Shown here piece after piece: positions 23,513 to 48,850 of a DNA stretch of 48,850 nt. Within the stretch, counting starts at the first letter, position 1, and each line of letters begins with the position of its first letter. A program made the translations under genes and the position numbers. This DNA is from Microcaldota archaeon (GTDB taxonomy: Archaea; Micrarchaeota; Micrarchaeia; Anstonellales; Bilamarchaeaceae). The DNA lies in the NCBI GenBank assembly GCA_016212505.1, contig JACRGB010000017.1, forward strand, positions 1 through 48,850, in the 5' to 3' direction. The notes under the pieces are model-generated. The model was not told the origin of the DNA. It saw only the letters and a list, made by a program, of their open reading frames with translations, and did not search any database.

Positions 23513-23773
23513 ATGAATGTAAATCTTCATCTAAAAGGAGAGCTTGAGAGATTTGTCAATAATTTGGTAGAGCGGGGAATTGCTGCAAATAAAACAGAGG
23601 CCATCAGGTTAGCTCTTACCAGGTATTATGAGCAGCAAACAGTACAAATGAAAAAAAGAGTTGAAAAAGAACCTCTTAATCAATCGACAATAGAAGCGCA
23701 CTGGAACAATCCGTCTGATGAAAAATCATCTGAATTCTATGTAAAGAGGTATTTGAATGACAAAAAAGCCTAG
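23513..23773 (+). CDS. antitoxin of a MazF/PemK-type module
   Basis: 86 residues. The N-terminal NVNLHLKGELERFVNNLVERG then NKTEAIRLALTRYYEQQ has the strand-helix-helix form of a ribbon-helix-helix antitoxin; the C-terminal half is charged, as in toxin-binding tails. It directly precedes the MazF/PemK-like toxin. The stop at 23771-23773 falls inside the first hairpin of a hairpin element that separates the two genes. Confidence 0.75.
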   Translation: MNVNLHLKGELERFVNNLVERGIAANKTEAIRLALTRYYEQQTVQMKKRVEKEPLNQSTIEAHWNNPSDEKSSEFYVKRYLNDKKA

Positions 23774-23810
23774 CTTTTTTGACTATCGTGAACGAAGCAT
23801 CGTTCACGAC
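23762..23810. repeat. two-hairpin element between antitoxin and toxin
   Basis: Hairpin 1 is 23762-23780 (stem AAAAAAGC/GCTTTTTT), the linker is GACTATC, and hairpin 2 is 23786-23809 (stem TCGTGAACGA/TCGTTCACGA, loop AGCA). The linker and the CGAAGCATCG core match other members of the family in this window. It is flanked by direct repeats ATGACAAAAA at 23757-23766 and 23811-23820, as if inserted with target duplication. Confidence 0.7.
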
Positions 23811-24134
23811 ATGACAAAAAGGCGTGAAGTAGTACTTGCAAAAGTTTATTTCACTGATTCTAGTGAAAGCAAAACAAGGCCTGCGATAGTGCTTTCCAAT
23901 GATACTTACCATGAAGATGATTTTCTGTTAGTTGCTTCTATCACAACAGCTAACGATGAATATTGTATGCCGCTATCAGAAAAAGACGTTAATTGTATTC
24001 TTGATAAAAATAGTGGAGCAAGGTTTGATGGAATCATAAAGATACACAAAAAGCAGGTTCAAAGAATAATCGGGAAAGTAACACCTGAGTTTCATTCAAA
24101 GCTTGTAGAAAAAATTATTAGCAGGATAAATTAG
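23811..24134 (+). CDS. MazF/PemK-like toxin
   Basis: 107 residues from the ATG at 23811. The frame is also open from an ATG at 23757 (125 residues), but those 18 codons are just the hairpin element read through. KRREVVLAKVYF, then KTRPAIVLSND, is the typical MazF/PemK start (GxVvlv.F..g...k.RPavVls). LLVASITT and FDGIIKIHKKQVQRIIGKV match the rest of the fold. The family are mRNA-cleaving endoribonucleases held off by the upstream antitoxin. If 23811 is the true start, translation must reinitiate after the hairpins. Confidence 0.8.
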   Translation: MTKRREVVLAKVYFTDSSESKTRPAIVLSNDTYHEDDFLLVASITTANDEYCMPLSEKDVNCILDKNSGARFDGIIKIHKKQVQRIIGKVTPEFHSKLVEKIISRIN

Positions 24135-24163
24135 CATGATAAAATAGTTTAACAGCTCAAGGA

Positions 24164-24261
24164 CAAATTTAGCAAAATTTGGCCTGTTGTGGAGTAATAC
24201 TCCACGACTGTCGGGAAACGTTTTGCGTTTCCCGCCATGTTTGGAAATCATACAATTTCCA
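24164..24261. repeat. four-hairpin array of the GACTGTC family
   Basis: No gene is seen between 24135 and 24350. Hairpins: 24164-24181 (CAAATTT), 24189-24205 (GTGGAGT), 24213-24233 (GGGAAACG) and 24242-24261 (TGGAAAT). The linker between the second and third is GACTGTC (24206-24212) and the third is followed by GCCATG, matching the linkers seen at 23781 and 40549 although all stems differ. Confidence 0.65.
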
Positions 24262-24319
24262 TACAATAAAAATTTGTAGGAAATTGCGTTTTATCACTTT
24301 GAGCAACAACTTACCACCA

Positions 24320-24328
24320 TTTATAAGG
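24320..24328 (+). promoter_or_regulatory. TATA box of the Cys-rich lipoprotein gene
   Basis: TTTATAAGG is centred 27 bases before the ATG at 24351, predicting a leaderless mRNA. Confidence 0.55.
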
Positions 24329-24350
24329 TTTTCCTTCTATATTATAATGC

Positions 24351-25802
24351 ATGAAACTGCTGATCAGTCTATTGATCGTGGGAAGTTTACTTTTATACGG
24401 GTGCACATTCAAGGGATTAGGATCGGATAATACCAAAAACACTACCTCTTGTTCTTGCGATTCATACAAACCAGTTTGCGGCTCTAACGGGAAAACTTTT
24501 GATTGCCGGGGGACTGCAGGATGCGCAAATATTAGCGTTACATATGAAGGAGAATGCAATTCATTTGAAAAAACATGCAGCGACAGCGACGGCGGCAGGG
24601 ACATTTTCGCCAAAGGAAGCGTGGTGGATTCGGATGGGGTCCATCAGGATAAGTGCGAAGGAAGTAGTTCTATTGTTGAATATTATTGCAGTTTAACCGT
24701 GGCAAAACCCGAAACAATCAAATGCCCGGACGATTATGAGTGCAGTGATGGGGCGTGCATAAAGAAAATACCGCCACCATCTCCAAAATGCGCTGACAGT
24801 GATGGAGGATTAGGATATTTCACTGCGGGTAAGGTAAATTCTTATGGAACAGTTTATTCGGATGTTTGTACCGGCATAGGCCAGGTAAAAGAATATTACT
24901 GCCAGGGAGATAAAGTTTCTTCAGTTATTTATCCTTGCGCGCCGGATTACGAATGCCGAAATGGCGCATGTGTTCCACTTACACAAACATGCCGGGACGA
25001 TGACGGGGACGACATATACAGAAGCGGCAGGACGACAATAACCAGTACCTTGTATGTTACTTCGAGCGATGATTATTGCATTAACAGCCAGACCGTAAAA
25101 GAATTTTATTGCAGCGGCACTTACGAAAAAAACAACAATGTTGATTGCCCGCGGGGTTACGAATGCAAAAATGGGGCATGTGTTGGAAACCCCTGTTATG
25201 ACTCGGATAATGGCAACGATATTTATACCAGGGGAACAGCGAGTCGAGGGGGAACTTATTCAACAGATTATTGTACAGGCGGATCGAGCGGAATCGAATA
25301 TTATTGCGCTTACGACCAAATTTACAGCAATTCATTTACCTGTCCTCAAGGAGATAACTGCAACGATGGCAGGTGTACATACCAAGGCGGATGGTGCAGT
25401 GACAGCGATGGTGGGGATAACATAAACAGTCCCGGAAGCGTGAGCAAAGGCGCTAATAGTTATTCGGATTCCTGCAGCAACAGTAAAAGCGGAACTGAGT
25501 ATTATTGCAGCGGTAATGATGTATCAAGTTATTCCTTTAGTTGTGCATTTGGATATAGCTGCATCGGGTCTCCAGGTTATTGCACACCAAGATGCGAAGA
25601 TAGTGATGATTCGAATCTTTATACTCAGGGCACTACCGGAAAGGGAGGAACGAACTATCAGGATTATTGCAGCCCTGCAGCGGGAAATATTGTTGTTGAA
25701 TATAGCTGTAACCAGGATTTCGAGGTAGTGGCCAACTCAGTTACTTGCCCGGTAGACTCTTATTGTAATCAAGGCATGTGCGTTTCAAGTAAGTTTACTT
25801 AA
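24351..25802 (+). CDS. lipoprotein with Kazal domain and six Cys-rich repeats
   Basis: A 483-residue surface protein. The signal peptide ends in the lipobox LLLYGC with C18 as the lipid anchor. Residues of about 34-69 form a Kazal-type serine protease inhibitor domain (PVCGSNGKTF, six Cys). Six repeats of about 65 residues follow, each of the form C-xDSDGG-x-D/N-I-xxxG, then DxC, EYYC, and CPxxYECxxGAC. The even Cys count implies disulfides outside the cell. The role is unknown; protease inhibition or adhesion are possibilities. Its stop overlaps the convergent CDF gene by 4 bases. Confidence 0.88.
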   Translation: MKLLISLLIVGSLLLYGCTFKGLGSDNTKNTTSCSCDSYKPVCGSNGKTFDCRGTAGCANISVTYEGECNSFEKTCSDSDGGRDIFAKGSVVDSDGVHQDKCEGSSSIVEYYCSLTVAKPETIKCPDDYECSDGACIKKIPPPSPKCADSDGGLGYFTAGKVNSYGTVYSDVCTGIGQVKEYYCQGDKVSSVIYPCAPDYECRNGACVPLTQTCRDDDGDDIYRSGRTTITSTLYVTSSDDYCINSQTVKEFYCSGTYEKNNNVDCPRGYECKNGACVGNPCYDSDNGNDIYTRGTASRGGTYSTDYCTGGSSGIEYYCAYDQIYSNSFTCPQGDNCNDGRCTYQGGWCSDSDGGDNINSPGSVSKGANSYSDSCSNSKSGTEYYCSGNDVSSYSFSCAFGYSCIGSPGYCTPRCEDSDDSNLYTQGTTGKGGTNYQDYCSPAAGNIVVEYSCNQDFEVVANSVTCPVDSYCNQGMCVSSKFT

Positions 25803-26707
25803 TGTTTTTTCAATTTTATTGTTCTATCTAAATCGTGTTCTTCATCAGGTTCCATATGAATAATTACTTCTTTTACATCAGGGCACTTTTCTATAATTTT
25901 TATTTCCAGTTCTTCCGCGATCTTATGCGCTTTTGTAAGGGAGATATCCGATTTCAGATGGACGGAAACATCAATAAATATTTTCCTTCCGGAAAGCCGC
26001 CCCCTGAGGGAATGATATGCCAGTATTCCGGGGTATTTTGAAATTACTGTAGAAATTTTACCCAGGATTTCTTCACTAGGTGCCTGGTCAAGCAAAATGA
26101 AAGTTGATTCTTTTGCGATATTAACTGCAACATAGAGCATAATAAGCGCAACAACTACCGCACCGGCTATATCCGCTAGTGGATAACCGATGGCAGTTGC
26201 ACCCAAGCCCACAATCACTGCGATAGCACTGTACATATCAGTAGTAAAATGAAATGCATCAGCCTCTAAGGCAGCGGAGTTTGTTTCTTTGCTTTTCTTA
26301 TGAAGAAAAGCTGAAATTTTGACATCTATTATCAGGGTAATTACCATTACGGCTATTCCCAGAAAACTCTCCCTAACTACATAATTTGGGGCCTCAAATT
26401 TAAGATGAGCCTCGTAGAGTATGAAAACGCTCGTAAGGCCAAGAAGGATCGACTGGATTATGCTGGAGAGGTTTTCAAACCGTTCATGGCCATAATGGTG
26501 GGTCTTATCAGAGGGTTCAGATGCTTTTTTTATCCCAAAATAAGCAAAAAAAGAGGCCGCAAGGTCAAAAACAGAGTGGAGTGAATCTGCCAGGATGCCC
26601 AGGGAGCCAGTATATAACCCAACCGCCAGCTTGATTATTATGATGAAAAGGTTGGCAAAAACAGAGTATTTTGCAGCGCTTAGCTTTTCATGCTCATGCT
26701 CGTGCAT
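25799..26707 (-). CDS. cation diffusion facilitator (CDF) transporter
   Basis: 302 residues with a His/Glu-rich N-terminus (MHEHEHEK), about six membrane helices and a cytoplasmic C-terminal dimerisation domain. Site A residues are D41, H44 and D48 (ADSLHSVFD) and an HxxxD pair in DAFHFTTDMYS; these form the metal site for Zn, Mn, Fe or related divalent ions exported against protons. The ion cannot be told from sequence. TTTTTATT about 25 bases before the ATG suggests a leaderless mRNA. Confidence 0.92.
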   Translation of the reverse strand: MHEHEHEKLSAAKYSVFANLFIIIIKLAVGLYTGSLGILADSLHSVFDLAASFFAYFGIKKASEPSDKTHHYGHERFENLSSIIQSILLGLTSVFILYEAHLKFEAPNYVVRESFLGIAVMVITLIIDVKISAFLHKKSKETNSAALEADAFHFTTDMYSAIAVIVGLGATAIGYPLADIAGAVVVALIMLYVAVNIAKESTFILLDQAPSEEILGKISTVISKYPGILAYHSLRGRLSGRKIFIDVSVHLKSDISLTKAHKIAEELEIKIIEKCPDVKEVIIHMEPDEEHDLDRTIKLKKH

Positions 26708-26765
26708 AAGTTTCTTTAGAAGAGTAAGAATAAAAACTTCCAGTACGGATCAGATACGGGAACAT

Positions 26766-27326
26766 ATGGGATATTTGGGACAGATAAGGTACAATTTCCA
26801 ATACAAAAACAAAAGAACCCCCTTTCCGCTCGCTCTGGGAGTTGCAGCCGTACTGGTTTTCTTAATTATTTTTGGTTGCATTGCAAACACACAGAACCAA
26901 CCGAATCCTGGCCCTAGCATGAATGATGAACCGAATAGCGAACCGAATAACCCTCCTAGCGTCAATAGCCCCGTATCATTAGCAGGAAGCTGGAGAATCT
27001 ACCCACTTAGGCTGAACATTGAAGGAGGGGTAGACTACAGAGTATTATCTTCCCGCAAACTCGAACTACATGAGGATGGTAGTTGGGATTTTGGAAGCTC
27101 ACATGGAACTTGGAAAAGCCAGACCATAACTGAGGCAGATTGGCAAAAATGGAGCACCGAAAAATATGGCCCCACAAAAAAAATCGTTTTGGATGGTTGG
27201 GAGGGGAAGGTTGTTGATGGACCAGTTGATGAAGAAAATGGGGCAGTAAACTTTTTCTGGTTGATTTACGATGTGAAAAATTCCTATGATAAGACAGTAC
27301 AGCTACAGCTTAAGTTTGGGCATTAG
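26766..27326 (+). CDS. membrane-anchored hypothetical protein
   Basis: 186 residues from the ATG at 26766. The frame is open upstream, but only over the start of the divergent CDF gene. A hydrophobic segment PLALGVAAVLVFLIIFGC precedes a Cys that could be a lipobox. A Pro/Asn-rich linker follows, then a beta-rich domain beginning LAGSWRIYPL and containing LELHEDGSWDFGSSHGTW, reminiscent of lipocalin-like ligand-binding modules. The outside face of the membrane is the likely site. No function is assigned. Confidence 0.7.
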   Translation: MGYLGQIRYNFQYKNKRTPFPLALGVAAVLVFLIIFGCIANTQNQPNPGPSMNDEPNSEPNNPPSVNSPVSLAGSWRIYPLRLNIEGGVDYRVLSSRKLELHEDGSWDFGSSHGTWKSQTITEADWQKWSTEKYGPTKKIVLDGWEGKVVDGPVDEENGAVNFFWLIYDVKNSYDKTVQLQLKFGH

Positions 27327-27420
27327 CCAGAATCTAGTTATAGCTTCTTAATTTCTCTACTAAAACTGCATCGCGGTTAAAAATAAGCCGTTTTCCTAGT
27401 GCACTCTGATCAGATGATAT

Positions 27421-27485
27421 TGCAGGGAGCAAAACTCCCGAGCAGGTTTCAGTTCATCAGTATTACACCACATTTTTATAAAAAT
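27421..27485 (-). other. partial copy of the tRNA-Leu 3' end plus palindromic A/T box
   Basis: The stretch 27327-27508 has no gene. It holds TGCAGGGAGCA at 27421-27431, identical to the 3' end of tRNA-Leu at 27509-27519, here followed by a GGGAG/CTCCC hairpin, and a symmetric ATTTTTATAAAAAT box at 27472-27485 that could be a promoter in either direction. What it drives is unclear. Confidence 0.35.
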
Positions 27486-27508
27486 TATCGACGTAAAAAA
27501 GCATAAAA

Positions 27509-27732
27509 TGCAGGGAGCAGGATTGTCAGTACCATTTTAGCACGCCCGTTTTTGGGCGTACCTTTTTACTAAAAAGGTACGTTTGAACCTGCGAAGACAC
27601 TAAGTCACGGGATTTCCTCAAAAAACCGGAGATTTCCGATTTCTTTGATGAAACTTTCTTTACCTAAGAAATATTAGAATAAAGAAAGTTTCCTTAAGTC
27701 CCGCGCATTTGACCGGGCTCTGCCATCCCTGC
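27509..27732 (-). tRNA. tRNA-Leu(UAA) with anticodon-loop and T-loop inserts
   Basis: Exons 27732-27693, 27613-27582 and 27522-27509 (minus strand) join to an 86-base leucine tRNA: acceptor GCAGGGA/TCCCTGC with A73, anticodon stem CGGGA/TCCCG, loop CTTAAGA (anticodon TAA), a long variable arm GAC-TTAGT-GTC, T stem GCAGG/CCTGC, T loop TTCAAAT. A 79-base insert at the canonical 37/38 site begins with a 13-bp hairpin. A 59-base insert at 59/60 holds an 11-bp hairpin (CGTACCTTTTT) and GCCC/GGGC. The first 8 bases, GCAGGGAT, recur 53 bases upstream at 27785-27778, close to the predicted transcription start. Confidence 0.85.
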
Positions 27733-27814
27733 GAGCGAAAGCGAGCGGGGATGTGATGAACTAGCAAGTTCAGCAATATCCCTGCACGTTAGATGAAATA
27801 GTAAGGATATTGTT

Positions 27815-27822
27815 TTTATAAA
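27815..27822 (-). promoter_or_regulatory. TATA box upstream of tRNA-Leu
   Basis: TTTATAAA is centred 86 bases before the tRNA start at 27732 but only 33 bases before the duplicate GCAGGGAT at 27785. The transcript therefore begins near the duplicate, not near the main tRNA copy. Confidence 0.5.
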
Positions 27823-27878
27823 CTAATTAGATTAGTAAAATAAAAAGAAAAAACACGAAACAGGTAGGAGATGCAAAC

Positions 27879-28619
27879 TTATCCGAACATCGATCCGCCT
27901 TCTTCTGCCGAAGGTCCTTTCCGCTTGGAAAGCTTTGCCTTAATCACTGCTTCCTTAATGGATTTTGAAAGTTCAGTTGCTTCTTTTTCCAGGCTGCCAG
28001 TATTTATCTGAATTCCGGTCAGCTTAGAAAGGGTAACTATGACCTTGGACGCTGCTTTTGGGTCCAAATATTCTTCAGATGATTCTGCCAAGATCGTAGT
28101 TACCGGGAAACTTTCCAAAGTCCCTTTTGTAAGCAAGATGCCGGTTACGCCTGTTGTTGCTCCTTCTTTTATTGGCTTGGCGATTTTCTTTGCTAAAATA
28201 TCTTTTATGGTTTTCTGGTCGGATGAAACTGCGTAAACTTCGCCTTTTTCTTCCTTTAGTGAAATGCCTCCCAATGAGACTATTGATGATGCTTCAACTG
28301 ATTTTGCAAATTCATAAATCCGATCTGCAACATCTAATGAAGAGCCAACAGGGATAGTCATCTCTGAGATCATAACGATCAGGTTGTGTTTTTCAGAATA
28401 ATGGATGCGCGCGGCCGGCATCGGCTTATAATTATGTATTGCAGCAAGTGGAGCGAAATTTGAGCTAGACATATAGCCGCCAAAGCTCATTCCCAAGGAT
28501 TCTACTATCTGTGATGCTGCAACAGAACCGACAAGGCCAGTTCCAGGAAAACCTATAACAAAGAGGGGTTTTTTCAACTTTCTCATATCTGCCGTCTTGT
28601 GTATTTCAACTTCGCTCAT
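27879..28619 (-). CDS. PAC2-family protein (proteasome assembly chaperone-like)
   Basis: A 246-residue PAC2-family protein. The N-terminal LFVIGFPGTGLVGSVAASQIVESLGM is the family hallmark, followed by HNLIVMISEMTIP and SIVSLGG. Archaeal members include PbaB-type homologues of proteasome assembly chaperones, some of which do not act on the proteasome. It is cytosolic. It shares its promoter gap with secG: the box at 28644-28651 is about 28 bases upstream of the ATG. The C-terminal tail KRKGPSAEEGG is probably disordered. Confidence 0.85.
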   Translation of the reverse strand: MSEVEIHKTADMRKLKKPLFVIGFPGTGLVGSVAASQIVESLGMSFGGYMSSSNFAPLAAIHNYKPMPAARIHYSEKHNLIVMISEMTIPVGSSLDVADRIYEFAKSVEASSIVSLGGISLKEEKGEVYAVSSDQKTIKDILAKKIAKPIKEGATTGVTGILLTKGTLESFPVTTILAESSEEYLDPKAASKVIVTLSKLTGIQINTGSLEKEATELSKSIKEAVIKAKLSKRKGPSAEEGGSMFG

Positions 28620-28643
28620 AAGTATTAACAGCAGAACAAAAGC

Positions 28644-28651
28644 TTTTATAT
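28644..28651. promoter_or_regulatory. TATA box shared by PAC2 and Sec61-beta genes
   Basis: TTTTATAT lies about 26 bases before the ATG at 28674 (+) and, as ATATAAAA, about 28 bases before the ATG at 28619 (-). No other A/T box is present in the 54-base gap. Confidence 0.45.
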
Positions 28652-28673
28652 CGTTCGCATGGAAAAGATTATT

Positions 28674-28841
28674 ATGGCAAACGATCGTGTGTCAATGCCG
28701 CTTTCTGGTGCGGGAATTATTGGCTTTTCTTCAGACATGAAACTTAGTGGGATACAGGTTGATCCCAAAACGCTCCTAATAGGGGTTGCAATTTTTGTAA
28801 TTGCAGTAAAAGTTGCCAGCGTGGCCATAGGCACTTTCTAA
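28674..28841 (+). CDS. secG: preprotein translocase subunit Sec61 beta
   Basis: 55 residues from the second ATG (28674), chosen because the TATA box is 26 bases upstream; the ATG at 28659 would place the box too close. The sequence MPLSGAGIIGFSSD then GIQVDPKTLLIGVAIFVIAVK is the archaeal Sec61-beta pattern: a short cytosolic N-terminus and one C-terminal membrane helix. It is the small subunit of the SecYE-beta channel, which would export the many signal-peptide proteins in this window. The stop overlaps the convergent HD gene by 4 bases. Confidence 0.9.
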   Translation: MANDRVSMPLSGAGIIGFSSDMKLSGIQVDPKTLLIGVAIFVIAVKVASVAIGTF

Positions 28842-29953
28842 TACTTTCTGATATAGTCGGCTAGTTTTTGTTGCTTTTCTTCCTTGAATTTTTGGTTAGC
28901 AAGTATAAGGACCATCATCCTTTCCTCTTCTGAACTTTTTAGCGATTTTACCATGCCGGAAAGTTCAGTTATTGGAGCTAGTCCTTGCGGAGTTTTCACC
29001 TTAAGTGCCACTGGCTTGAAAAATGGGTGCGGATAGTCCACAATAATATCCGTCTTGAATTTTTCTGAAAGGTCTTTTTCCAATTTTTCTGCTTCTTGTT
29101 GGGTACATTTTGATCGTGGGATGGTGGCAACTTCCTTGTATAGTTTTCGAGTAAGCAATGCATTGGCATATAATGATCCGTTTTTCGATTGGGAAATTTT
29201 TGCGAGGGCCTCTTCATCCCCAAGGGAAGTGAAATCCTTTGGCTTAAGCGTACCATCAGATAATGCGCCGTCAATTGCACGGTATAACATTGCAGTTGCG
29301 ATCCGAACAGTGTGGTGAAGATAAACCGCAGAAAACATCATGAACCTGGCAATCAGCAGGTATTCTGCTGCTTCCAATCCTCCTTTTTCAATGCAAAGTT
29401 CTCCCTTTTCCATCGCAAGGGTATGGACAATGCGGTCGATATCGATCATACCGTAAGCTACACCGGTATTTAGCGCATCCCGCTTAAGGTAATCCATGCG
29501 GTCGGAACCAAGATCAGATGTAATTATCGCACCGTGATGGGAATGCTCCATTGCTGCAATTTCTTTTGGATCAAAAGTTTCTGATAGGATGTCTTTTAGC
29601 TCGCCCCCAAGTATGAGCTTTTTGCCAAGCGATTCATGGTCGCCGAGGTAGCGCTTTAGTACGTCCTCGCCTTCATGCGAAAATGTGGTGTGGCCGATAT
29701 CATGAAGTAGCCCGTATAGCTTGATTTTTCTGGAGGTATCCTCATCAAAGCCAAGTTTTTTTGCAATTAGCCATGAGAGGTGCGAGGTTCCGATCGAGTG
29801 CTCGAATCTTGTGTGGTTTGCACCAGGATAAACCAAATTAGTCACTGACATCTGCTTTATTCTTCGCAGGCGCTGGAAGGATTCGCTATCGATTATTTGC
29901 TCTTCCAGTTCGTTGAATTCGATTGTCCCATGAACCTGATCACGAATTATCAT
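28838..29953 (-). CDS. HD-domain phosphohydrolase (COG1078/SAMHD1-like)
   Basis: A 371-residue HD-superfamily hydrolase. The metal site is visible: H52 (HTRFEHSIGT), H84 and D85 (LLHDIGHTTFSH) and the downstream Asp in SDRMDYLKRD. The N-terminal RDQVHGTIEF and FQRLRRIKQM are typical of the dNTP triphosphohydrolase/SAMHD1-like group. It probably hydrolyses nucleotide triphosphates in the cytosol and could tune dNTP pools or act in defence. The ATG at 29953 begins the conserved MIIRDQVHGTIEF, so the start is secure. Confidence 0.9.
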   Translation of the reverse strand: MIIRDQVHGTIEFNELEEQIIDSESFQRLRRIKQMSVTNLVYPGANHTRFEHSIGTSHLSWLIAKKLGFDEDTSRKIKLYGLLHDIGHTTFSHEGEDVLKRYLGDHESLGKKLILGGELKDILSETFDPKEIAAMEHSHHGAIITSDLGSDRMDYLKRDALNTGVAYGMIDIDRIVHTLAMEKGELCIEKGGLEAAEYLLIARFMMFSAVYLHHTVRIATAMLYRAIDGALSDGTLKPKDFTSLGDEEALAKISQSKNGSLYANALLTRKLYKEVATIPRSKCTQQEAEKLEKDLSEKFKTDIIVDYPHPFFKPVALKVKTPQGLAPITELSGMVKSLKSSEEERMMVLILANQKFKEEKQQKLADYIRKY

Positions 29954-29983
29954 TAAAGAAATAGTGCAGGTTAGTGTTAATAA

Positions 29984-31156: not shown

Positions 31157-31179
31157 GTTACTATTTATGCATAGAAGTG

Positions 31180-31187
31180 TTTATAAA
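31180..31187 (-). promoter_or_regulatory. TATA box for the 390-residue hypothetical gene
   Basis: TTTATAAA is centred 27.5 bases before the ATG at 31156; a leaderless mRNA is expected. Confidence 0.55.
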
Positions 31188-40240: not shown

Positions 40241-40477
40241 TATGTGCTATATCCCCGACCAAGTAAGTTTTCTGTATCAGTGGTCGGGGGATGTCGTGAT
40301 CGTCGTAACGATCAGGAGCATCAGCAAGTTCGCATTAGTGAACTTGTCTGATACAAAATACTGTGTATTTTGTACATGTTCGTGAAAGCTTTTCTGCTTT
40401 CGCGACATAGTTGATTCATCCTAAAATGCATCAGCATTTTGGGAGCTACTGACCAATAGTCAGTGGAGCTTTTTTTG
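40241..40477 (+). ncRNA. candidate structured ncRNA of seven hairpins with terminator
   Basis: No protein gene fits here. Seven hairpins follow one another: 40251-40292 (ATCCCCGACCA, 11 bp), 40297-40314, 40320-40352, 40353-40373 (9 bp), 40376-40408 (13 bp with G-U), 40420-40443 (10 bp) and 40444-40470 (AGCT plus ACTGAC). The last is followed by seven T (40471-40477), as in a terminator, and a TATA box lies at the right distance upstream, so an independent transcript of about 235 bases is likely. I find none of the RNase P or SRP RNA signatures. The spacer GATGTC-hairpin-GAGCAT also occurs at 48761. Confidence 0.6.
40444..40477 (+). terminator. hairpin plus T7 terminator of the ncRNA
   Basis: AGCT...ACTGAC pairs with GTCAGT...AGCT around a CAATA loop, directly followed by TTTTTTT. 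A T-run is sufficient for termination in many archaea. Confidence 0.5.
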
Positions 40478-40505: not shown

Positions 40506-40697
40506 TGTGACCGAAGAGACCCCATGGCAAGAAAGCAAAGCTTTCTTGACTGTCGTGATCGAAGCGTCGATCACAACACTGCAAGCACTCGCCAGTTCAT
40601 GGCTCGGTCGCTTCGCGACGTGGGGTATGCCTCATTCGGTCACAACTTTCAAAATTGGGTCGCTGCAAGCAGCGGGGTATCAAACCCAATTTTGAAA
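40506..40697 (+). ncRNA. second multi-branched RNA-like domain
   Basis: An outer stem TGTGACCGAA (40506-40515) pairs with TTCGGTCACA (40635-40644). Inside it, ACCCCA (40519-40524) pairs with TGGGGT (40621-40626), enclosing three hairpins at 40528-40548, 40555-40574 (the GACTGTC-family hairpin) and 40607-40619. After the outer stem, a 13-bp stem (40647-40659 with 40685-40697) encloses CGCTGC/GCAGCG. This nested junction looks like functional RNA. No promoter of its own is visible; it may be readthrough of the upstream RNA or the 5' region of the operon at 40765. Confidence 0.5.
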
Positions 40698-40764: not shown

Positions 40765-41574
40765 ATGAACGGCATGGCATCAAAAAACTATCTTTATGCA
40801 TCTTTGGGTATAGGCGCTTTTGGGGCGCTTTTGGCATTTATTGCGGGGGGGCCTTTTGCGTTCGTGGGAGGGCTTTTGGCCATGATAGGGTCCTTAGGCG
40901 GAGTATTAGTCTGGAAATACGGCTACCTGATCATCCCACTCATAACCCAGAGAACAAAAATCATCATGATGAGCGAGGAGGGATTTGAAATCCCGCCCGG
41001 CCAGGACGTAGTGATAAAGAACGTCGATGGTGTTTTTTACGCATCCGCTTTCTTAGGCCTGAAGATATTCGAATCGGCAACGGAAAAATCCGCTGAAGAA
41101 ACAATGACCTACACCCAATTTTTCGAGCGCGCGATATCCAACCTCAAATACGTAACAAAAATCTCGTACTTACTTTATGTAGAAGATGTAGGCGAAAAAA
41201 GGAAGACTGTTGAAACAAAAAGGGCCGAGTATCAGCTTCGGCTTTCGAGGGAACGGGACAAGGCCCAACCCGACCCGATAAAAATCGACCGCTACGAGCG
41301 TGATGTGGCACAATGGGACGGGCAACTGACACGATTAATTAAGGGGGTAAAACCCATGGGAATAATCGCATACGCCCAGACCACTGCAGCTGGAATAAGC
41401 AAGGAGGCTGCAATGGCATCGGCAAAGGCACAGGCAAACGAATTGCGCACAGTGCTTGCAAATGCGCTCAATGTCGAAGTAGTTACTCTTGTTGCTGATG
41501 ATATGCTGAGGTGCTTTGAATGGGAAAAATTCTTCCCGAGCAGCCCGCAGGAACTGGAAGAAAGTGTAATGTAA
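40765..41574 (+). CDS. membrane protein resembling PrgI/VirB4 N-terminal region
   Basis: 269 residues. Two membrane helices lie at about 9-50 (ASLGIGAFGALLAFIAGG, then FVGGLLAMIGSLGGVLVW), followed by a cytoplasmic region: a beta segment GFEIPPGQDVVIKNVDG, a basic coiled stretch (KRAEYQLRLSRERDK) and a C-terminal alpha/beta part. The two-helix start followed by a domain encoded just before a VirB4-like ATPase resembles the PrgI plus VirB4-N arrangement of type IV secretion systems, so this may be the separated N-terminal partner of the ATPase. First gene of the operon; GAGGT precedes the start. Confidence 0.7.
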   Translation: MNGMASKNYLYASLGIGAFGALLAFIAGGPFAFVGGLLAMIGSLGGVLVWKYGYLIIPLITQRTKIIMMSEEGFEIPPGQDVVIKNVDGVFYASAFLGLKIFESATEKSAEETMTYTQFFERAISNLKYVTKISYLLYVEDVGEKRKTVETKRAEYQLRLSRERDKAQPDPIKIDRYERDVAQWDGQLTRLIKGVKPMGIIAYAQTTAAGISKEAAMASAKAQANELRTVLANALNVEVVTLVADDMLRCFEWEKFFPSSPQELEESVM

Positions 41575-41633
41575 AATAAAGTAATAAAAGTAATTAATGT
41601 AAAAAAGTAATGTAAAAGATGTGAAGGGATTAC

Positions 41634-43217
41634 ATGCCACTTGCAGGAAGATTAAAGCTAACCAAATTGTCCAATCACGATATTTCACGCCGAGATATCC
41701 TTGTGCGGCCGCCAGTTCCGCCGATGTCAGTCCTTTTTTCTGATCCTACAAACGGAATATATATCGGAAAGACAAGTGTATTCAATATCCCTTTTTACTG
41801 GAGCTATGAAAATGTTGCAAATCCGCATATTGCAGTTGTAGGAATTTCAGGTTCTGGTAAAAGTTATTTTATCAAAACCTTCCTCCTAAGGGCAGCATTT
41901 GTCTGGAATACCAATGCCTTAATCATCGATTGGGCAGGGGAATATAAGGACTGGGTGAGGGACACTTCAGGAAAAGTCATTGCCTTAGGCAAAGGATCAT
42001 ACCTTAATCTTCTCGATCTCGGTGGCATGAAACCGTATGACCGGATAAAACAAGTTATGCGGACGCTCGAGCTGCTGACAGATATCGCTAATTACCCAGA
42101 ACAAAGAAGGCTTACCGAGCAGGCAATTGAAAAAACATATTTGGAAAATAAGTTCAAGATGGATGCCCGGGAGCAAAAAGATGAGCTTGGTAACCCGCTC
42201 TCCGCCCCTACATTAAAAGACGTGGTAAGGATACTCACTGAGCAGGGACAAATAGGCACTTATGAATTTCCTGCAGAGTTGGAAAATGCCATTTATAGGC
42301 TAAAACAGTTCACAAAACCAGGGGAAGATTTCTTTGCCCAGCAAAGTACAGTAAAACTCGAAGTGCTGATCAGTTCCGGTTTGGTGGATCTTGACCTATC
42401 CGGATTGCCGGATGAATCATCACGTGCGCTTGGCGCTCTTACGATTTTGCAGTTTATCAAGGAAAAAATGCGCCAGGAAGGATGGTCTGAAACAAAAGGC
42501 CTGAGACTACTAGTTGTACTTGATGAGGCATGGAAGATTGGCAAGGACGATAACTCGGATGCAGTCATGATAGTCCGAGAGGGGAGGAAATATAATTTCG
42601 GTATGATTATCGCATCGCAAAACCCGACAGATATCAGCGAAAACATATTCAGCAACGTCGGAACGACATTTATGCTTAAAGTCAAGTTCGAGCGGTTCCT
42701 TGATTATTTACAGGGGTCGCTTAATTTCAGCCCGTATATGAGGGAGGAAATTGGAAGGTTAGGTGTCGGGCAGTGCGCAGTCAATATGTCCTTGACACTA
42801 TCAACCCCATACCCATCAACATTTTTATTGCAGAAAATAGAAGGGGAAGAGCCAAGCCGGGAATACTTCCTTGACTTGGCGCTGATACTAAGTGAAAAAC
42901 AACGGAGGGATGTCAACGTGTCCAGAAGTGTTGCGTTTATGAAAGAGGATTTTAGGCGGAAATTAAGGCAGTTTGGGATTAATGATGAGCGGATGGAAGA
43001 AGTTACCAAGTTGTTTGATAAAAATAACCGCCACATGGATGTCGTTTCATTTGTAATTTTACTCGAGCGCGACGGAGTGGCACGGCGAAATATCGGCGAT
43101 TTCCTTAAGGAATCCGGAGTGGATGATATAACGATCATAAACATATTCGGAAAAGTTGATCTGAAAAAAGGTGGCGGAGTGGGCCGCGAAATAAGCCAGG
43201 TGGTGCTTGAAGAGTAG
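41634..43217 (+). CDS. VirB4/HerA-superfamily ATPase
   Basis: A 527-residue motor ATPase. Walker A is GISGSGKS at 70-77, IIDWAGEY at 97-104 matches the HerA/VirB4 D-x-x-x-E-Y signature, Walker B is LLVVLDEA with D297 and E298, and IIASQNP at 325-331 carries the sensor Gln. The ~65 residues before Walker A form a small barrel-like segment as in HerA. The family powers DNA or protein translocation through conjugative pilus and type IV secretion machines, or DNA end resection (HerA). Membrane-protein neighbours and the absence of a NurA gene favour a secretion or pilus motor. Confidence 0.85.
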   Translation: MPLAGRLKLTKLSNHDISRRDILVRPPVPPMSVLFSDPTNGIYIGKTSVFNIPFYWSYENVANPHIAVVGISGSGKSYFIKTFLLRAAFVWNTNALIIDWAGEYKDWVRDTSGKVIALGKGSYLNLLDLGGMKPYDRIKQVMRTLELLTDIANYPEQRRLTEQAIEKTYLENKFKMDAREQKDELGNPLSAPTLKDVVRILTEQGQIGTYEFPAELENAIYRLKQFTKPGEDFFAQQSTVKLEVLISSGLVDLDLSGLPDESSRALGALTILQFIKEKMRQEGWSETKGLRLLVVLDEAWKIGKDDNSDAVMIVREGRKYNFGMIIASQNPTDISENIFSNVGTTFMLKVKFERFLDYLQGSLNFSPYMREEIGRLGVGQCAVNMSLTLSTPYPSTFLLQKIEGEEPSREYFLDLALILSEKQRRDVNVSRSVAFMKEDFRRKLRQFGINDERMEEVTKLFDKNNRHMDVVSFVILLERDGVARRNIGDFLKESGVDDITIINIFGKVDLKKGGGVGREISQVVLEE

Positions 43218-43285
43218 TGCTGGGAATTTTGGAACGTCAGAGTTCAGATATGCCGGAATGTGAATAAGAGGAAAGAGGGTTTTGA

Positions 43286-43804
43286 ATGAAAGTGTGTATC
43301 ATATGCGAAAAGGAAATCCAGGGCAAGGCAGTTGCAGTAAAGGAAGACCGCATAATTAGGGTCCTTAGAACGATCAAAAAAACGTTTAATGTTGCAAAAA
43401 TGAATGACCTTTATGTTTGCGAAGAGGATAAAAAGAAGCACGAAGAACGGAGAAAATCTTTCGAAAAAGGGGTGCTCTTTGCAAGCATTGGCGCAGGAAT
43501 CGTCATAGTCATATTGCTGGCCAAAACGATCCTAACCGGAGCGATAGAGGCCTGGTCAATACTATCTGGATTGATACTTGCAGGTTTCATAATTTTATTG
43601 CCGCTTTTTAGATATACACCTGCAGTGGAAGGTATGAATAGCCAGTTGCTCCCGCTTTTGAAGGGGAAAAATGAAAAGGCGCCCGAGACAAAAATAGCTG
43701 CAGGCGAAGTGCCTAAGGCACGGGAAAGTTTTGCAGTTAAGGCAAATTCCAAGGTAACGAAAAAAAGCAGAATGAATTTCAAAAAAGCAGATGAATCGAA
43801 ATGA
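43286..43804 (+). CDS. zinc-site membrane protein of the VirB4-like operon
   Basis: 172 residues. The N-terminal cytoplasmic part has C4 and C7 (CIICEK) plus C45 and H52, a plausible treble-clef-like zinc site. Two membrane helices follow (about 62-82 and 88-108), then a basic tail rich in Lys and Ala. GAGGG precedes the ATG. No family is recognised, but its position between the ATPase and the coiled-coil gene, and only 15 bases before the latter's start, indicates a part of the same apparatus. Confidence 0.7.
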   Translation: MKVCIICEKEIQGKAVAVKEDRIIRVLRTIKKTFNVAKMNDLYVCEEDKKKHEERRKSFEKGVLFASIGAGIVIVILLAKTILTGAIEAWSILSGLILAGFIILLPLFRYTPAVEGMNSQLLPLLKGKNEKAPETKIAAGEVPKARESFAVKANSKVTKKSRMNFKKADESK

Positions 43805-43819
43805 GTTGAGGTGAAAATT

Positions 43820-44596
43820 ATGGCCATACCCCAGATAAAACCCGGAGCGCAGGCAGCTAAAAAGCAGGGTGGCCCAGCCCAGGCCCAGCAGCCGCCGCAG
43901 GTTGACGGCTTTAAGATAAAAGGAAAAAGAAGCGGAGACCTTAAGGACGTGGCAAATACACTGCGGTCAATATCATTTTTGGAAATTGCACCTGAGAAAG
44001 ATCGGGTTAATGTTGTTTATATAGAAAGCAAGGACATAAACAAGAATCCATACTTATTTTCAGTGATAAAGATATCTGATGATGAGATAGAGGTAGTATA
44101 TTCGATTCCTCAGGAAATAGGGCCAAAAAAACGCCGTATTGATGTGATACGTTATCTTCTGAACATACTCTCACTCATAGACCCATATTTTCATGTGGAA
44201 AACAAGACACTTTACCAGCTTATTGAAAATGCAGTAAAGGAAATTTCTGAAGCAGTGTCAGTAGACTATAATTCACTCTATACCAACTACGATTCGCTAA
44301 GGAAGGAAGTCGAGGACCATAAGAAAAAAATTGAAAGGTTAGATGACCAGAACAAGGCACTTACAACTAGAAATTATGAACTTAAGGCCCAGAACGATGA
44401 ACTGCACCTAAAAATAGGAAAGCTCGAGGGCCTATCGGATGAATCGCTAAAGGCAAAAATCCAGGAATGGGTTTTGGAGCACAGCGGAACAATAAATGTC
44501 CCTGAATTTGCAAAGGTATTCAAAACTACTGAAGCAAGAGTGGAAGAAACGTTAAACCGTTTAGTAAGTGAAGGTTATCTAGAGGCAGGGCAATAG
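43820..44596 (+). CDS. coiled-coil and winged-helix protein of the VirB4-like operon
   Basis: 258 residues from the ATG at 43820, which has GAGGTG six bases upstream; a GTG at 43811 is part of that ribosome site. The start is a Gln/Pro/Ala-rich flexible region. A globular alpha/beta domain (about 38-145), a coiled coil (about 148-205, NYDSLRKEVEDHKKKIERLD and onward) and a C-terminal winged helix (TINVPEFAKVFKTTEARVEE) follow. It is cytosolic. It ends two bases before the large membrane protein gene, whose C-terminal region also looks like a winged helix, so the two may interact. Confidence 0.7.
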   Translation: MAIPQIKPGAQAAKKQGGPAQAQQPPQVDGFKIKGKRSGDLKDVANTLRSISFLEIAPEKDRVNVVYIESKDINKNPYLFSVIKISDDEIEVVYSIPQEIGPKKRRIDVIRYLLNILSLIDPYFHVENKTLYQLIENAVKEISEAVSVDYNSLYTNYDSLRKEVEDHKKKIERLDDQNKALTTRNYELKAQNDELHLKIGKLEGLSDESLKAKIQEWVLEHSGTINVPEFAKVFKTTEARVEETLNRLVSEGYLEAGQ

Positions 44597-44598
44597 AT

Positions 44599-47175
44599 AT
44601 GGTAGAAGTAGGTGGAATCAAACTCAAGAAGAAAATCTATAACGTCAGTGTCAGGAAAAGATACCAGTATGCCGGCCGCTATAAGATACGAAAAAGGACA
44701 TATGCAGATATTATAAGGGACATACAAAAATCAATACTTACAAAAAAAGGGGAAAAGACCGGAAAAATTGGCGAAAGTGGAGTCCCTCCAAAGGGAGGAA
44801 CCAATGTCATTGTCCTGGTCACCTTTATCCTCTTAGGGATCATTGTACTTATCAGTGGGTGGGTATACCTTAGTTCCCAAATAGACCAGATCCGGTTGGG
44901 TGGTCAAAATGCGCAGGTAGAAAAACCGCTGGTAAACAATCTCATACTAAATGGCCAGACCCTAGATGCTGGGGAAAGAAGAAGCGATGACCGGGTCGCC
45001 TTACTGCTCATCGATTATAAGACCACGAACCTGAAGAACTATACAATAAATATAACCAACTATAAGGACGTTATTCCTTCCCAGGTCTTCATATTAGAAA
45101 GTGAAAAATTTGAAGCTGGCAGCTACCCGGAATTCATACGCTCATTAAGGGAAGAACTTGGAAAAAGAAAAACACTGGTAAACGACATATCGATTAGCCA
45201 ATTGGAAACCATACCTCAAGGGGCCATAGTCATCATACCCAGTGGGGTTATGCCAAAAGAGATGCTTGGAATAGATAGCAATATAGATATAGAAAAACTG
45301 GTAGATAAGGGAATTGTATTCATATATATTGGAGAACCATTCAAAAAAATGCTCAAGGGAAACCTGGTGGTTTCCACCCCCGGAGAGGTAATTAAAAACA
45401 TTCCTTTTGCATTTAATGAGAACGCCCAACTCCAATCAACGGATGAGTTCCACCTTTTCCAACCCCTCTATCAGGTCTCTTCCAGGGGAAGTTGGAGCAG
45501 CCGATCAGCATATGGTTCGGTGAGTATACTCAAAAAAGGAAATGGCGCATTCATATTTGTCCCTCAGACCCTAGATGGCGGTTGGAGGGGAAAATCCACA
45601 GTTGCTGCAGGGGACATTGCAAGAATCGTTAATGAGATACCCTGGTCAGCGCAAGAGGGCGAATCGAAGATATATCACATAGGCAGTTCGAATAACTATA
45701 GTGCAACAGAATATTTCTACTCCAACACATTCAAAGGAACCACAGAGACTCTTAAGGCAGAATTTACAGGTTATTCCCCAACTTATTCCCCAACTGGATC
45801 ATTGCCAATAGAGCAGGTGCTTTTTTACACTGTTGAAAAAGAGGTCCGGGGCGATTTGAACATTGAAAATGGCTATAAAGTAGTATCTAGCAATGTCACA
45901 AATAATTTTGTGAGGCTTAATGCAAACCTCAAAGAGCCAACACCCGCACAGCCCAGCATGTCCCTCTCAATAGTGGACAAAAATGGAAATGAAATCCAGA
46001 GCATCCCACAGGGAAATATTGATGATCAGGCCGAGGCATCTTTTGATATTCCGGTTTATGTAAATGATGGGGAGTACACAGTAAAGCTCGTGGACGATGG
46101 GGGGAAAGTTTACGCACAAACGTATATGAAAGTTGTTTCTATAGACATAAAATATAACCCCTACAAAGGGGAAAACGCGCACAGCTACGTATTTGACATA
46201 ACAATGGACGGGAACCCGATATCGCTTGCCGAGGTTAATGTAAAAGTAGATAATGGGCAAAGCGGCACATATAAGTTTTCGGATAAGTCAACCCTTTTAG
46301 TCGATGTCAACCAATATACCGGGGGAGACCATCTTCCATTTGGCAACCACAACTTCGAATTTGTTGCAGGTGGACTGAAAGTGAATGTACCTGTCGCAGT
46401 GGAACGCCAACGAAGTCTCTTTACAGATCCATTTTTCTACGGTATAGTGATTTTTGCGGTGTTGATCGTGGGGGCAGGAGTAATATTTGCAAGAAGGGAG
46501 GAGGTGCATTATTCTGTTGACATACCGGATTTTCCTCCAGTAGCTAGAACTAAAATTGCATTAGCTGGAGATGTCATACTTTCAATATTTGAAAAGGTAA
46601 ATGAAAATTACCGCTGGCAAAATACGCCGCTAACACCTTCTGAAGTAAAAAATGGGTTTAAGGATATTTTCTATAAGGGAAAGCCAACTTACATAACTGA
46701 TTACAATGTCGAGTACCTGCTTGAGGAACTTGAGAAGAAAGGTTTTGTCAAGGAATCATTAGGGTATTTCGGGCTAAAATCCTGGGAAGAACGGGCAAAG
46801 AAAAGCATCGAATACCTTTCAATGCTCAGAAAGCTAAGGGACATATGCGTTGACAATGCAGTGCCATTTACAGGATTAAAAGAATCAAAAGTTTCTGACA
46901 GCGAAGTAACTGTGGCAGGCCAGCAGATGTTCCTGCACTTTTATGATCCTCAGGAAGATCTGAGAAACATTTTCAAAAACGCACTTGGAACTATTGGAAA
47001 AGGGATAACCATCATCCTCTTCAAGAGCAAGGCAGATAAGGCCGCATTTGAAGCTATAGTGCATTCTCCTTCTGCCGCACCGCTGATTATGAAGATGGAA
47101 AAGGAAAGTGGTGCGGTCCAGTTCCTTACAGGCGACGAATTCGAAAAAATGGTAAAGGAATTTAAGATGATTTGA
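44599..47175 (+). CDS. large two-helix envelope protein of the VirB4-like operon
   Basis: 858 residues. A basic cytoplasmic start (1-68) precedes a membrane helix (about 69-91), an extracellular region of about 520 residues, a second helix near 612-632 (IVIFAVLIVGAGVIFA), and a cytoplasmic part of about 225 residues with winged-helix-like sequence (YITDYNVEYLLEELEKKGF). The ectodomain begins with an alpha/beta part similar in style to glutamine-amidotransferase-like domains (GAIVIIPSGVMP, GIVFIYIGEPF) and continues with beta-rich modules (YTVKLVDDGGKVYAQTYMKV). It would span the membrane and connect the cytosolic motor to the surface. The family is not recognised. Confidence 0.75.
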   Translation: MVEVGGIKLKKKIYNVSVRKRYQYAGRYKIRKRTYADIIRDIQKSILTKKGEKTGKIGESGVPPKGGTNVIVLVTFILLGIIVLISGWVYLSSQIDQIRLGGQNAQVEKPLVNNLILNGQTLDAGERRSDDRVALLLIDYKTTNLKNYTINITNYKDVIPSQVFILESEKFEAGSYPEFIRSLREELGKRKTLVNDISISQLETIPQGAIVIIPSGVMPKEMLGIDSNIDIEKLVDKGIVFIYIGEPFKKMLKGNLVVSTPGEVIKNIPFAFNENAQLQSTDEFHLFQPLYQVSSRGSWSSRSAYGSVSILKKGNGAFIFVPQTLDGGWRGKSTVAAGDIARIVNEIPWSAQEGESKIYHIGSSNNYSATEYFYSNTFKGTTETLKAEFTGYSPTYSPTGSLPIEQVLFYTVEKEVRGDLNIENGYKVVSSNVTNNFVRLNANLKEPTPAQPSMSLSIVDKNGNEIQSIPQGNIDDQAEASFDIPVYVNDGEYTVKLVDDGGKVYAQTYMKVVSIDIKYNPYKGENAHSYVFDITMDGNPISLAEVNVKVDNGQSGTYKFSDKSTLLVDVNQYTGGDHLPFGNHNFEFVAGGLKVNVPVAVERQRSLFTDPFFYGIVIFAVLIVGAGVIFARREEVHYSVDIPDFPPVARTKIALAGDVILSIFEKVNENYRWQNTPLTPSEVKNGFKDIFYKGKPTYITDYNVEYLLEELEKKGFVKESLGYFGLKSWEERAKKSIEYLSMLRKLRDICVDNAVPFTGLKESKVSDSEVTVAGQQMFLHFYDPQEDLRNIFKNALGTIGKGITIILFKSKADKAAFEAIVHSPSAAPLIMKMEKESGAVQFLTGDEFEKMVKEFKMI

Positions 47176-47242
47176 AAATGGGTTTTGCTAAATTCGGTTC
47201 CACTAGAAAGTTGCATGAATAAAATTAGAAAATTAAAAAGAG

Positions 47243-48034
47243 TTATTTCCTATTCTCGAAAAGGTTGCCGATCATTTTTTCATCGACAAATTCAAGCAAC
47301 TTTTCACAGCGGTCGCATTTGAAATTTATCGTCATTGCGGTCTCAAAATCAACGATGCTGTGCGCACCGCAAGAAGCGCAGGCATAATGATCAGAACCAG
47401 AGTTTAGGGTGGAACGATTATTTTGTTTTCCTGCCCAGCGCCCGATCTTTTCAACATTCAGAGACCAGCTATAAGAGTACCATCCGGTTTCGTTATCTTT
47501 TTCCCTTAAATAATTAACAATCCCTTCACTATGCAACTTGTTCAAAGTTGCCCGGACATCGCTAATTTTCAATTTCAATTTTTTTGCCAGTTCATCATCG
47601 CTGTGACTTCCGCGTATGTTCCTTATAAGTGCAAGGGCATTCTCGCCGCCCAATTCTATAAGAGTCTGACGAATATTAGAATCAGCTAAAATAGTTGCAA
47701 TGGTAGCCAAATCGGCTTTTGTTAGTTCGGTATTTTTAATTTCAACAATCGCGGCAACCTTAGAAGTAAGGGGTTTGGCGGTTTTCATAGCTTTTTTGGG
47801 GGGATTCAGAGTAGTGACCTTGGACCCCTTAGCCTTCAGCTTAACCTGATTTTTTGATAAATTTTTATTAGAAACCTTCTTTACAACAGTTTTTACAGAT
47901 TTTATAGTCTTTGCAGTCTTACCTGCAATTTTCTTTTGCATTTTTTTCAACCGATCACCAGTAACTTTTCGTGCAGGTTTCTTATTAGCGCGTTTTTTAT
48001 ATATAAGCTTTGTCTTTTGAGTCGTTTTTTTCAT
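47243..48034 (-). CDS. tfe: transcription factor E (alpha) with Lys-rich N-terminal extension
   Basis: 263 residues. Residues of about 120-195 form the TFE winged helix (LIELGGENALALIRNI, ATLNKLHSEGIVNYLREKD, WYSYSWSLN), and C219, C222, C240, C243 the zinc ribbon (CASCGAHS... and FKCDRC). TFE helps open promoters and stabilises the RNA polymerase complex. Standard archaeal TFE is about 170-190 residues; here an extra ~90 residues at the start are Lys-rich (KKRANKKPARKVTG and onward), like a histone H1 tail. A TATATAAA box lies about 36 bases upstream. Confidence 0.88.
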   Translation of the reverse strand: MKKTTQKTKLIYKKRANKKPARKVTGDRLKKMQKKIAGKTAKTIKSVKTVVKKVSNKNLSKNQVKLKAKGSKVTTLNPPKKAMKTAKPLTSKVAAIVEIKNTELTKADLATIATILADSNIRQTLIELGGENALALIRNIRGSHSDDELAKKLKLKISDVRATLNKLHSEGIVNYLREKDNETGWYSYSWSLNVEKIGRWAGKQNNRSTLNSGSDHYACASCGAHSIVDFETAMTINFKCDRCEKLLEFVDEKMIGNLFENRK

Positions 48035-48193
48035 AACACTACCCTACCATATTATACCACTAAGAGTATATAAATGTGCTGGTTTAAGGAAAAACCAGGA
48101 AATACTGTGGCAAAAAATTTACCTCATGGAATTTAACAGATGTCGTAAAAAAGAAAAAAAAGTCAGAATGAGTATCATAAGTTGCCTAATTCA

Positions 48194-48655
48194 TTAGGGG
48201 GTTAGGAGCACCTGCTCTGAGATCCGCTCGCCAGCAATTATCATCTTCTTGAGCAAATCCTTCTTCCCCTCGTCTATAGCCATATGGTCGATTTGTCTGA
48301 GGCGATTTTGGTACTTCCGATAGGCTTTAACCGCGCCAGCATAAGAATCACGGACATGTGGATCTTCCAGATTTGCCAGTTTTTTTCCAATTTCCCGTTT
48401 TTCGATCTTGCTGAGGCTTTGGGAAGGATAAAATAGTTTTACATTAAGCCTTGCAGCGACTTTTTTCACAAAATGCGATGGCGGGTGGGTGTCGGACGCG
48501 ACAATTATCGGGATGCCGAACTGCGAAATAACAGAAACAATTTTCTCATCGCTCGCTTCTTTTAAGGTGCCGCTAGAAACCAAATTGCCTGATAAATCAA
48601 GAATAGCATAGCCGGTGTTTATCCCTGCATCAATACCTACGATAGTATAAATCAA
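48194..48655 (-). CDS. RNase H-fold (COG2433/DUF460-type) protein
   Basis: 153 residues with the RuvC/YqgF-like RNase H fold. D9 in VGIDAGINTGYAILDL is the first catalytic Asp; IIVASDTHPP gives a second acidic position (D53) and EDPHVRDSYAGAVKAY the last (D101). The arrangement matches the N-terminal domain of archaeal COG2433 proteins, which are normally much longer with a coiled-coil region, so this is a minimal version. It starts at TTG (48655), with AGGTGGG directly before it. The nucleic-acid substrate is unknown. Confidence 0.8.
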   Translation of the reverse strand: MIYTIVGIDAGINTGYAILDLSGNLVSSGTLKEASDEKIVSVISQFGIPIIVASDTHPPSHFVKKVAARLNVKLFYPSQSLSKIEKREIGKKLANLEDPHVRDSYAGAVKAYRKYQNRLRQIDHMAIDEGKKDLLKKMIIAGERISEQVLLTP

Positions 48656-48680
48656 CCCACCTGCGCACCGTGCTCACTTT

Positions 48681-48850
48681 TCGGCTCTGTAGAAACCCTC
48701 TATAGCAGTGGCACCATCAACAAGCCGATCCAACAAAAAAAGTTGGATCGTATATGTTGTGATGTCAGGATCAATTAGTTGATCCTGAGCATGCTCGTGA
48801 TCTTTGCGAAGATCACGACATCGACGCTTCGATCACGACAGTCAAGAAAC
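48681..48850. repeat. hairpin array at the window end
   Basis: No gene is seen. TCGGCT/AGCCGA (48681-48686 with 48723-48728) encloses CTGTAGA/TCTATAG. Further hairpins are 48726-48750 (CGATCCAAC), 48765-48788 (TCAGGATCAA) and 48795-48818 (TCGTGATCTT). Bases 48820-48849 are the exact reverse complement of 40542-40571 (30 of 30). The array continues beyond the window; the transcribed strand is not clear. Confidence 0.65.

Follow-up and report, generated by a model that had tools for sequence, protein, structure and literature searches.

We conclude that the twin hairpins sharing the linker ACTGTC (family A) are best explained as short mobile DNA elements of approximately 50–57 nt, which consist of two hairpins and have no coding capacity of their own. 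They insert with fixed ends, nest within each other, are tolerated in genes and conserve their structure. Probably, they are selfish elements working like the double-hairpin elements of mitochondria and the palindromic elements of Rickettsia.

Twin-hairpin families of the genome

The window (48,850 nucleotides) is the whole contig C4 of a 1.48-Mb genome in 46 contigs (G000), all of which were analyzed. Hairpins with stems of at least 8 bp number 28 in the window, compared to 3–11 in four shuffles, and 621 in the genome, compared to 165 after shuffling in 200-base blocks. Adjacent hairpin pairs, 2–8 bases apart, occur 124 times in the genome vs. 5 times in shuffled sequence. The hairpin excess in window and genome is not due to chance. 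Several families of twin hairpins were found, each with linkers of its own: family A, the subject of the initial annotation; family B (GGACAAA... gc ATTGGAA...); family C (ATTGAACG... GGG(C)GCA ...), which is seen in tRNA introns; family F (GGAGAAATTC t GTAGCGAAC); and further ones.

A family A unit reads TGG/[CAARAA..-loop-..TTYTTG]-ACTGTC-[second hairpin]-NNCA, with ACAGTC or ACTATC as rare variants of the linker. Four parts are conserved: TGG just ahead of the unit, CAARAA/TTYTTG as outer half of stem one, the linker, and NNCA at the end. Inner stem halves and loops are variable, and so is the greater part of the second hairpin. In 38 parsed copies, 27 distinct sequences of the first arm and 29 of the second were counted. 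Nevertheless, mismatches and wobble (G.U) pairs are nearly absent from both hairpins (H1 and H2) of these 38 copies, save for a C-A that recurs at the edge of second stems when these are extended. This statement is limited to family A, since family B stems are less perfect and carry one to two mismatches in 10 of 34 cases. The covariation score of family A, computed on a structure-independent MAFFT alignment, is 0.431 and was reached by none of 500 shuffles (0.153 ± 0.019); sliding the stem partner by one base gives at most 0.19, and 12 of the 14 pairs vary on both sides. Long terminal inverted repeats are absent from the aligned copies.

A covariance model was built from 25 copies, including the window copies later scored by it, and finds approximately 28 distinct places in the genome. 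In the window, it matches at 12311, 23755, 24185 and 40522 (four complete copies, with E-values of 8e-16 to 1e-5 in a whole-genome search by the model to which they had contributed) and at a truncated copy at 48801 (Table 1). The four twin hairpins listed in the initial annotation are all present, but a fifth one, the best-scoring copy of the window (12311–12373), lies in a protein gene and was missed there. At 22293, where the inverted loop core was reported, the hairpin is real but is part of a separate twin-hairpin group, which uses another linker and lies shortly downstream of an interrupted tRNA gene. The wider claim of a dispersed family with conserved linkers and variable, complementary stems is borne out by the further copies in this genome and its relatives, and by covariation beyond shuffled controls.

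Table 1. Twin hairpins and associated repeats of the window.
Feature	Position	Strand	Structure and remarks
Left direct repeat TGG	12314–12316	+	Right copy 12371–12373; seen in the sequence
Family A copy in epimerase ORF (11985–13007)	12317–12370	+	H1 12317–12339, linker ACTGT 12340–12344, H2 12345–12366, GACA 12367–12370
Other twin/triple hairpin group, not family A	22260–22337		Linkers GTGCGC, TGCGTGGAA; contains inverted CGAAGCGTCG
TGA repeats flanking the 23761 copy	23758–23760 and 23812–23814		
Family A copy at start of PemK-family toxin ORF (23757–24134)	23761–23811	+	H1 23761–23781, ACTA, H2 23786–23809, then CA
Family B twin hairpin (GGACAAA.. and TTGGAAAT.. hairpins)	24161–24263		Split by the 24187 family A copy; outer limits approximate
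Family A copy inside family B element	24187–24238	+	H1 24189–24205, GACTGT, H2 24212–24234, CCA
Other twin hairpin (TACAAAATACtgtGTATTTTGTA CATGT TCGTGAAAGC..GCTTTCGCGA)	40352–40404		Different linker; just upstream of the 40528 copy
Family A copy, intergenic	40528–40578	+	H1 40528–40548, ACTGTC, H2 40555–40574, AACA; CCATGG precedes
Structured repeat of approximately 200 nt	48680–48850		Also at C36 and C37 starts, C24:24950–25284, C30:2121, C8:11554
Family A copy truncated by contig end	48801–48850	-	Adjoins more twin hairpins (48726–48788) of a larger dispersed repeat

Contigs C36 and C37 repeat the region of the truncated copy at their ends and contain the complete unit (C36:64–134 and C37:64–134). 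The dispersed structured repeat of approximately 200 nt (GGCTCTGTAGAAACCCTC...) sits at several contig ends and collects twin-hairpin insertions.

Family A was found in 12 of 43 genomes of the same family and in none of 41 genomes from other families of the order. At E ≤ 1e-4, and including a few places matched a second time on the mirror strand, there are 30 hits in the window’s own genome, 12 in G009, 7 in G012, 4 in G057, 3 each in G008 and G024, and fewer or none elsewhere. Hits in congeners number 12, 7, 3, 2, 1 or 0, and G013, G003 and G014 are among the genomes without copies. Such a range, from congeners lacking the element to a genome with 30 hits, agrees better with a mobile element than with a conserved RNA. 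Scanning GTDB contigs for the exact pattern returned 15 matches, among which the whole unit is clear only in Bilamarchaeum (twice in LFW-283_2, and in DeMMO3_13); most others look like chance matches. The same scan gave no match in viral contigs. The sequences matched in LFW-283_2 and DeMMO3_13 were also located in G009 and G008, which belong to the window’s genus. LFW-283_2 is the type genome of Candidatus Bilamarchaeum dharawalense and is listed as Bilamarchaeum, order Anstonellales, in PMC8561730; the window’s genome was assigned to Candidatus Bilamarchaeum (Micrarchaeota) because of these shared element sequences.

Insertion sites and interrupted genes

Family A copies are clean insertions with fixed ends, as was seen by comparing genomes and paralogous repeats. 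They sit between genes, within other repeats, and in the interior or at the termini of protein genes; their orientation relative to genes is random. One copy lies in the linker of another, i.e., C30:14179 equals C2:20967 plus a 55-nt unit. On contigs C24 and C8, twin hairpins of 53, 63 and 92 nt occupy sites which are empty in paralogous repeats, and family F is found at one and the same position of family B in both orientations (C29:66839, C24:42067). In the window, the family B element split by the 24187 copy reads GGACAAATTTAGCAAAATTTGGCC ... TGGAAATCATACAATTTCCA, while its uninterrupted counterpart is present at G000:C43:23992 (GGCCTGTTTGGAAATT).

When the unit is taken to end in NNCA and three bases are compared on each side, the flanks agree in 5 of 31 automatically scored copies, with 2.35 expected (permutation P = 0.015). 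This count is approximate, since automatic parsing went wrong for at least one copy (L160) and placed some boundaries incorrectly, e.g., at 24187. In copies whose left triplet departs from TGG, the right triplet often matches the left (TGA/TGA, TCT/TCT, AGG/AGG, and TGT/TGT at both junctions of the 24187 copy). That the matching flanks are a short target repeat is moderately supported by these sequences.

Four genes were found to tolerate copies. In the gene of an NAD-dependent epimerase, the element together with one TGG repeat forms an in-frame, stop-free insert of 57 nt (19 codons), which is missing at the same residue in 12 of 12 homologs from genus and family. In an AlphaFold model of the protein, the 19 residues are modeled with low confidence (pLDDT of approximately 51–57), whereas the remainder of the fold is confident (mean of the fold 84.6). 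In a gene whose sequence suggests ATP-synthase subunit B (atpB; G000:C25), a copy turns the usual tail KYMKK.. into KYMARTKRS*. The former AAAAAGAAACGGTAA tail is still present after the element, and most relatives keep the native KYMKK.. tail. A putative M24-type peptidase, named from its sequence, carries a copy in its last codons in both G012 and G002, with the native tail sequence continuing after the element; the tail is uninterrupted in G013 (79% identical to G012) and other relatives. H1 is identical in the two peptidase copies, whereas H2 differs by two compensated pairs. A paired change has, thus, occurred at what seems to be a shared insertion, which is compatible with both routes of stem maintenance discussed below, although two independent insertions in G002 and G012 are also possible since G013 has no element. 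Finally, an ORF of the PemK family (23757) starts inside a copy. A second in-frame ATG follows directly after the element (23811–23813), so that the first 18 codons may come from the element; in this gene, we infer the element-free state of the site from the flanking repeat only.

Copies are read in different frames in different genes, as GGC AAG in the epimerase and as ATG GCA AGA in atpB. A fixed coding frame, as in Rickettsia palindromic elements (RPE), looked promising due to SFLDC(R/L)(E/D)R in several ORFs, but was rejected as the atpB copy uses another frame. Besides family A, hairpin elements of the type GGACAAA.. / TGAAAAATTTT.. lie at or near ORF starts in G000 (C10:2567, C25:40496, C27:9568, C30:1806, C36:1543), where they may provide the start codon and the initial residues of the protein, e.g., MKNFAKIFQQRKFDRIYD or MRTKFVKLCP.

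Many tRNA genes of G000 contain inserts in their D, anticodon or T loops (e.g., C3:53240, C5:15807, C38:39825, C43:26950), and some of these inserts are homologous, covarying hairpins common to different tRNAs. In this genome, estimated to be 90% complete, Rfam detects only 6 tRNA genes above its cut-off, vs. 35 in the congener G003. Most tRNA genes of G000 appear to be interrupted. In the window, a tRNA-Arg(CCT) gene (21976–22204, +) has two interruptions, a twin hairpin in the D-loop (approx. 21995–22037) and several hairpins in the T-loop (approx. 22080–22189). As it stands, the gene is detected by neither ARAGORN nor Rfam, but its three exon pieces, when joined, give a normal cloverleaf in ARAGORN.

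Mechanism of spread and alternative explanations

New copies arise as clean insertions with fixed ends, usually beside a TGG-like trinucleotide, which often recurs beyond the element, as seen for several events. Recognition of the hairpin bases and the linker, probably on single-stranded DNA, would be the task of a recombinase or transposase acting in trans. The initial annotation had proposed such recognition of the linker; this is plausible because the linker and the stem bases are the conserved parts. The copies would be selfish: intergenic regions and other repeats accommodate them, and genes do so only if their frame or function can be kept. Stems with diverging inner halves could stay complementary if only well-folded copies are mobilized or if template switching copies one arm from the other. 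Perfect stems may, therefore, reflect selection, arm correction by template switching, or both. The earlier suggestion of selection on structure agrees with the complementary, covarying stems, but the scarcity of mismatches and G.U pairs also fits homogenization by template switching or young copies. Selection on a structure recognized as RNA or by a protein is a possible cause of the complementarity.

Could template switching alone explain the family? Quasi-palindromes would then be copied and corrected by polymerase strand switching, one arm templating the other and no transposition enzyme being involved. Template switching is documented to homogenize the arms of quasi-palindromes (PMC8604942), and few internal mismatches, save the recurrent edge C-A, remain in H1 and H2 of the 38 parsed elements. 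The same-site peptidase copies, exact in H1 and compensated in H2, point in the same direction. In several genes, moreover, the first arm resembles the downstream target, to a degree reached by 16 of 500 permutations; its derivation from the target is suggestive in the coding insertions and weak overall. However, all insertions, at unlinked sites, have the same two ends and linker, while switching at microhomologies would leave ragged ends. Template switching as the sole process is, thus, improbable. One candidate for an inverted loop, a hallmark of template switching, was noticed in family B only (C17:2484, tgcg vs. cgca). As an objection to the preferred reading, dispersal by replication-based copying, with no dedicated enzyme, could in principle suffice.

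A functional structured RNA or regulatory hairpin under selection, such as a terminator, a 3′-UTR stabilizer or a riboregulator, would agree with the strong covariation and with those copies that lie at gene ends or starts. However, family A has no match in Rfam 15 at the gathering threshold, G.U pairs are nearly absent, no gene context is favored, and copies are not enriched between convergent genes. Furthermore, copies lie within coding genes and within each other, and their presence differs among congeners. A regulatory RNA is, consequently, very unlikely, and a terminator or 3′-UTR role was rejected because of the gene context of the copies.

Even less probable are introns removed from RNA by the archaeal splicing endonuclease, i.e., bulge-helix-bulge introns which spread to protein genes. 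This reading draws on the heavily interrupted tRNA genes, where some inserts hold twin hairpins of other families, and on the broad specificity of the ARMAN-type splicing endonuclease (PMC12397907). However, the RNA of the epimerase insert is predicted, from this single sequence, to fold into two plain hairpins with no bulge-helix-bulge at the junctions, and intron-start and second-exon sequences are not complementary. In addition, this insert is stop-free and in frame, and the atpB copy swaps the tail for another short basic one.

REP/BIME-like repeats moved by a RAYT (Y1 HUH) transposase share short palindromes, dimers, and subfamilies with complementary stem changes (PMC3733652), but this is the least probable reading, as the genome, estimated to be 90% complete, contains no match to a Y1 transposase (PF01797), which argues against mobilization by Y1/RAYT, and the GTAG/CGTC tag is absent from the ends of the aligned copies.

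A reverse transcriptase was also rejected as mobilizer: matches occur in only 5 of 17 genomes and are unrelated to copy number or element distribution. The sole match in G000 is a gene piece with one in-frame TAG (C38:26512–27009).

The preferred reading, selfish mobile double-hairpin DNA, can be extended, though only tentatively. Family A might represent a new archaeal class of mobile element, in which an enzyme unknown to the literature reads folded, single-stranded hairpin ends and the stems are rewritten at or after insertion by arm copying, partly from the target. Sequence would then drift fast while structure is renewed, and in Bilamarchaeum, tRNA introns, essential genes and the elements themselves would have been invaded by related twin hairpins.

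Relation to known elements and significance

According to the initial annotation, no known element type fits exactly. This is only partly right, since the architecture (tandem hairpins that are mobile, nested, and found both in genes and between them) is that of double-hairpin elements (DHE) and the behavior in genes is RPE-like. The DHE of fungal mitochondria (Allomyces, Schizosaccharomyces; PMC10085805, and PMC2800124 citing Paquin et al., 2000) are closest in build, and RPE closest in behavior within genes. Like DHE, family A has two tandem hairpins per short unit, is dispersed, varies between related genomes, and is mostly intergenic but also found in genes; a mobilizer is known for neither. 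Mobility is seen in family A from presence and absence between relatives and from nesting. In contrast to the mitochondrial DHE, family A resides on an archaeal chromosome and possesses a conserved inter-hairpin linker (ACTGTC). It may also differ by the 3-bp flanking repeats of several events, as Allomyces DHE are reported to lack flanking duplications (PMC2800124). Since the analogy is structural only and the chromosome archaeal, we do not file family A under DHE by descent.

RPE are likewise palindromic and inserted into unrelated protein genes without destroying them, here those of the epimerase, atpB, the M24 peptidase and the PemK ORF. However, RPE are approximately 150 bp long and encode a conserved peptide (PMC10969869), whereas family A elements have 50–57 nt and frames that vary by gene. 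Small palindromes and subfamilies with alternative complementary stems are shared with REP/BIME and RAYT (PMC3733652), from which family A differs not only in transposase and tag but also by the near absence of G.T pairs and by the twin hairpin as regular unit. Archaeal MITEs are also non-autonomous, short and multicopy, with possible short target repeats (PMC10969869); family A appears to differ in having two separate internal hairpins and, in the aligned copies, no long terminal inverted repeats joining the ends, and, as an incidental observation, no autonomous partner with family A ends was noticed.

A search of open-access papers in PMC found comparable elements described for no DPANN archaeon, which is weak evidence of novelty. 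The literature found describes mobile double-hairpin DNA for mitochondria, where its movement is still open. In Bilamarchaeum, one family reaches approximately 28 copies in a genome, several sister families exist, congeners either carry or lack copies, and insertions lie in identifiable genes. This archaeal lineage is, therefore, a comparative system for testing the mechanism and the origin of perfect but variable stems. DPANN genomes, often called streamlined, can bear a heavy load of micro-elements which alter proteins, e.g., the ATP synthase B subunit.
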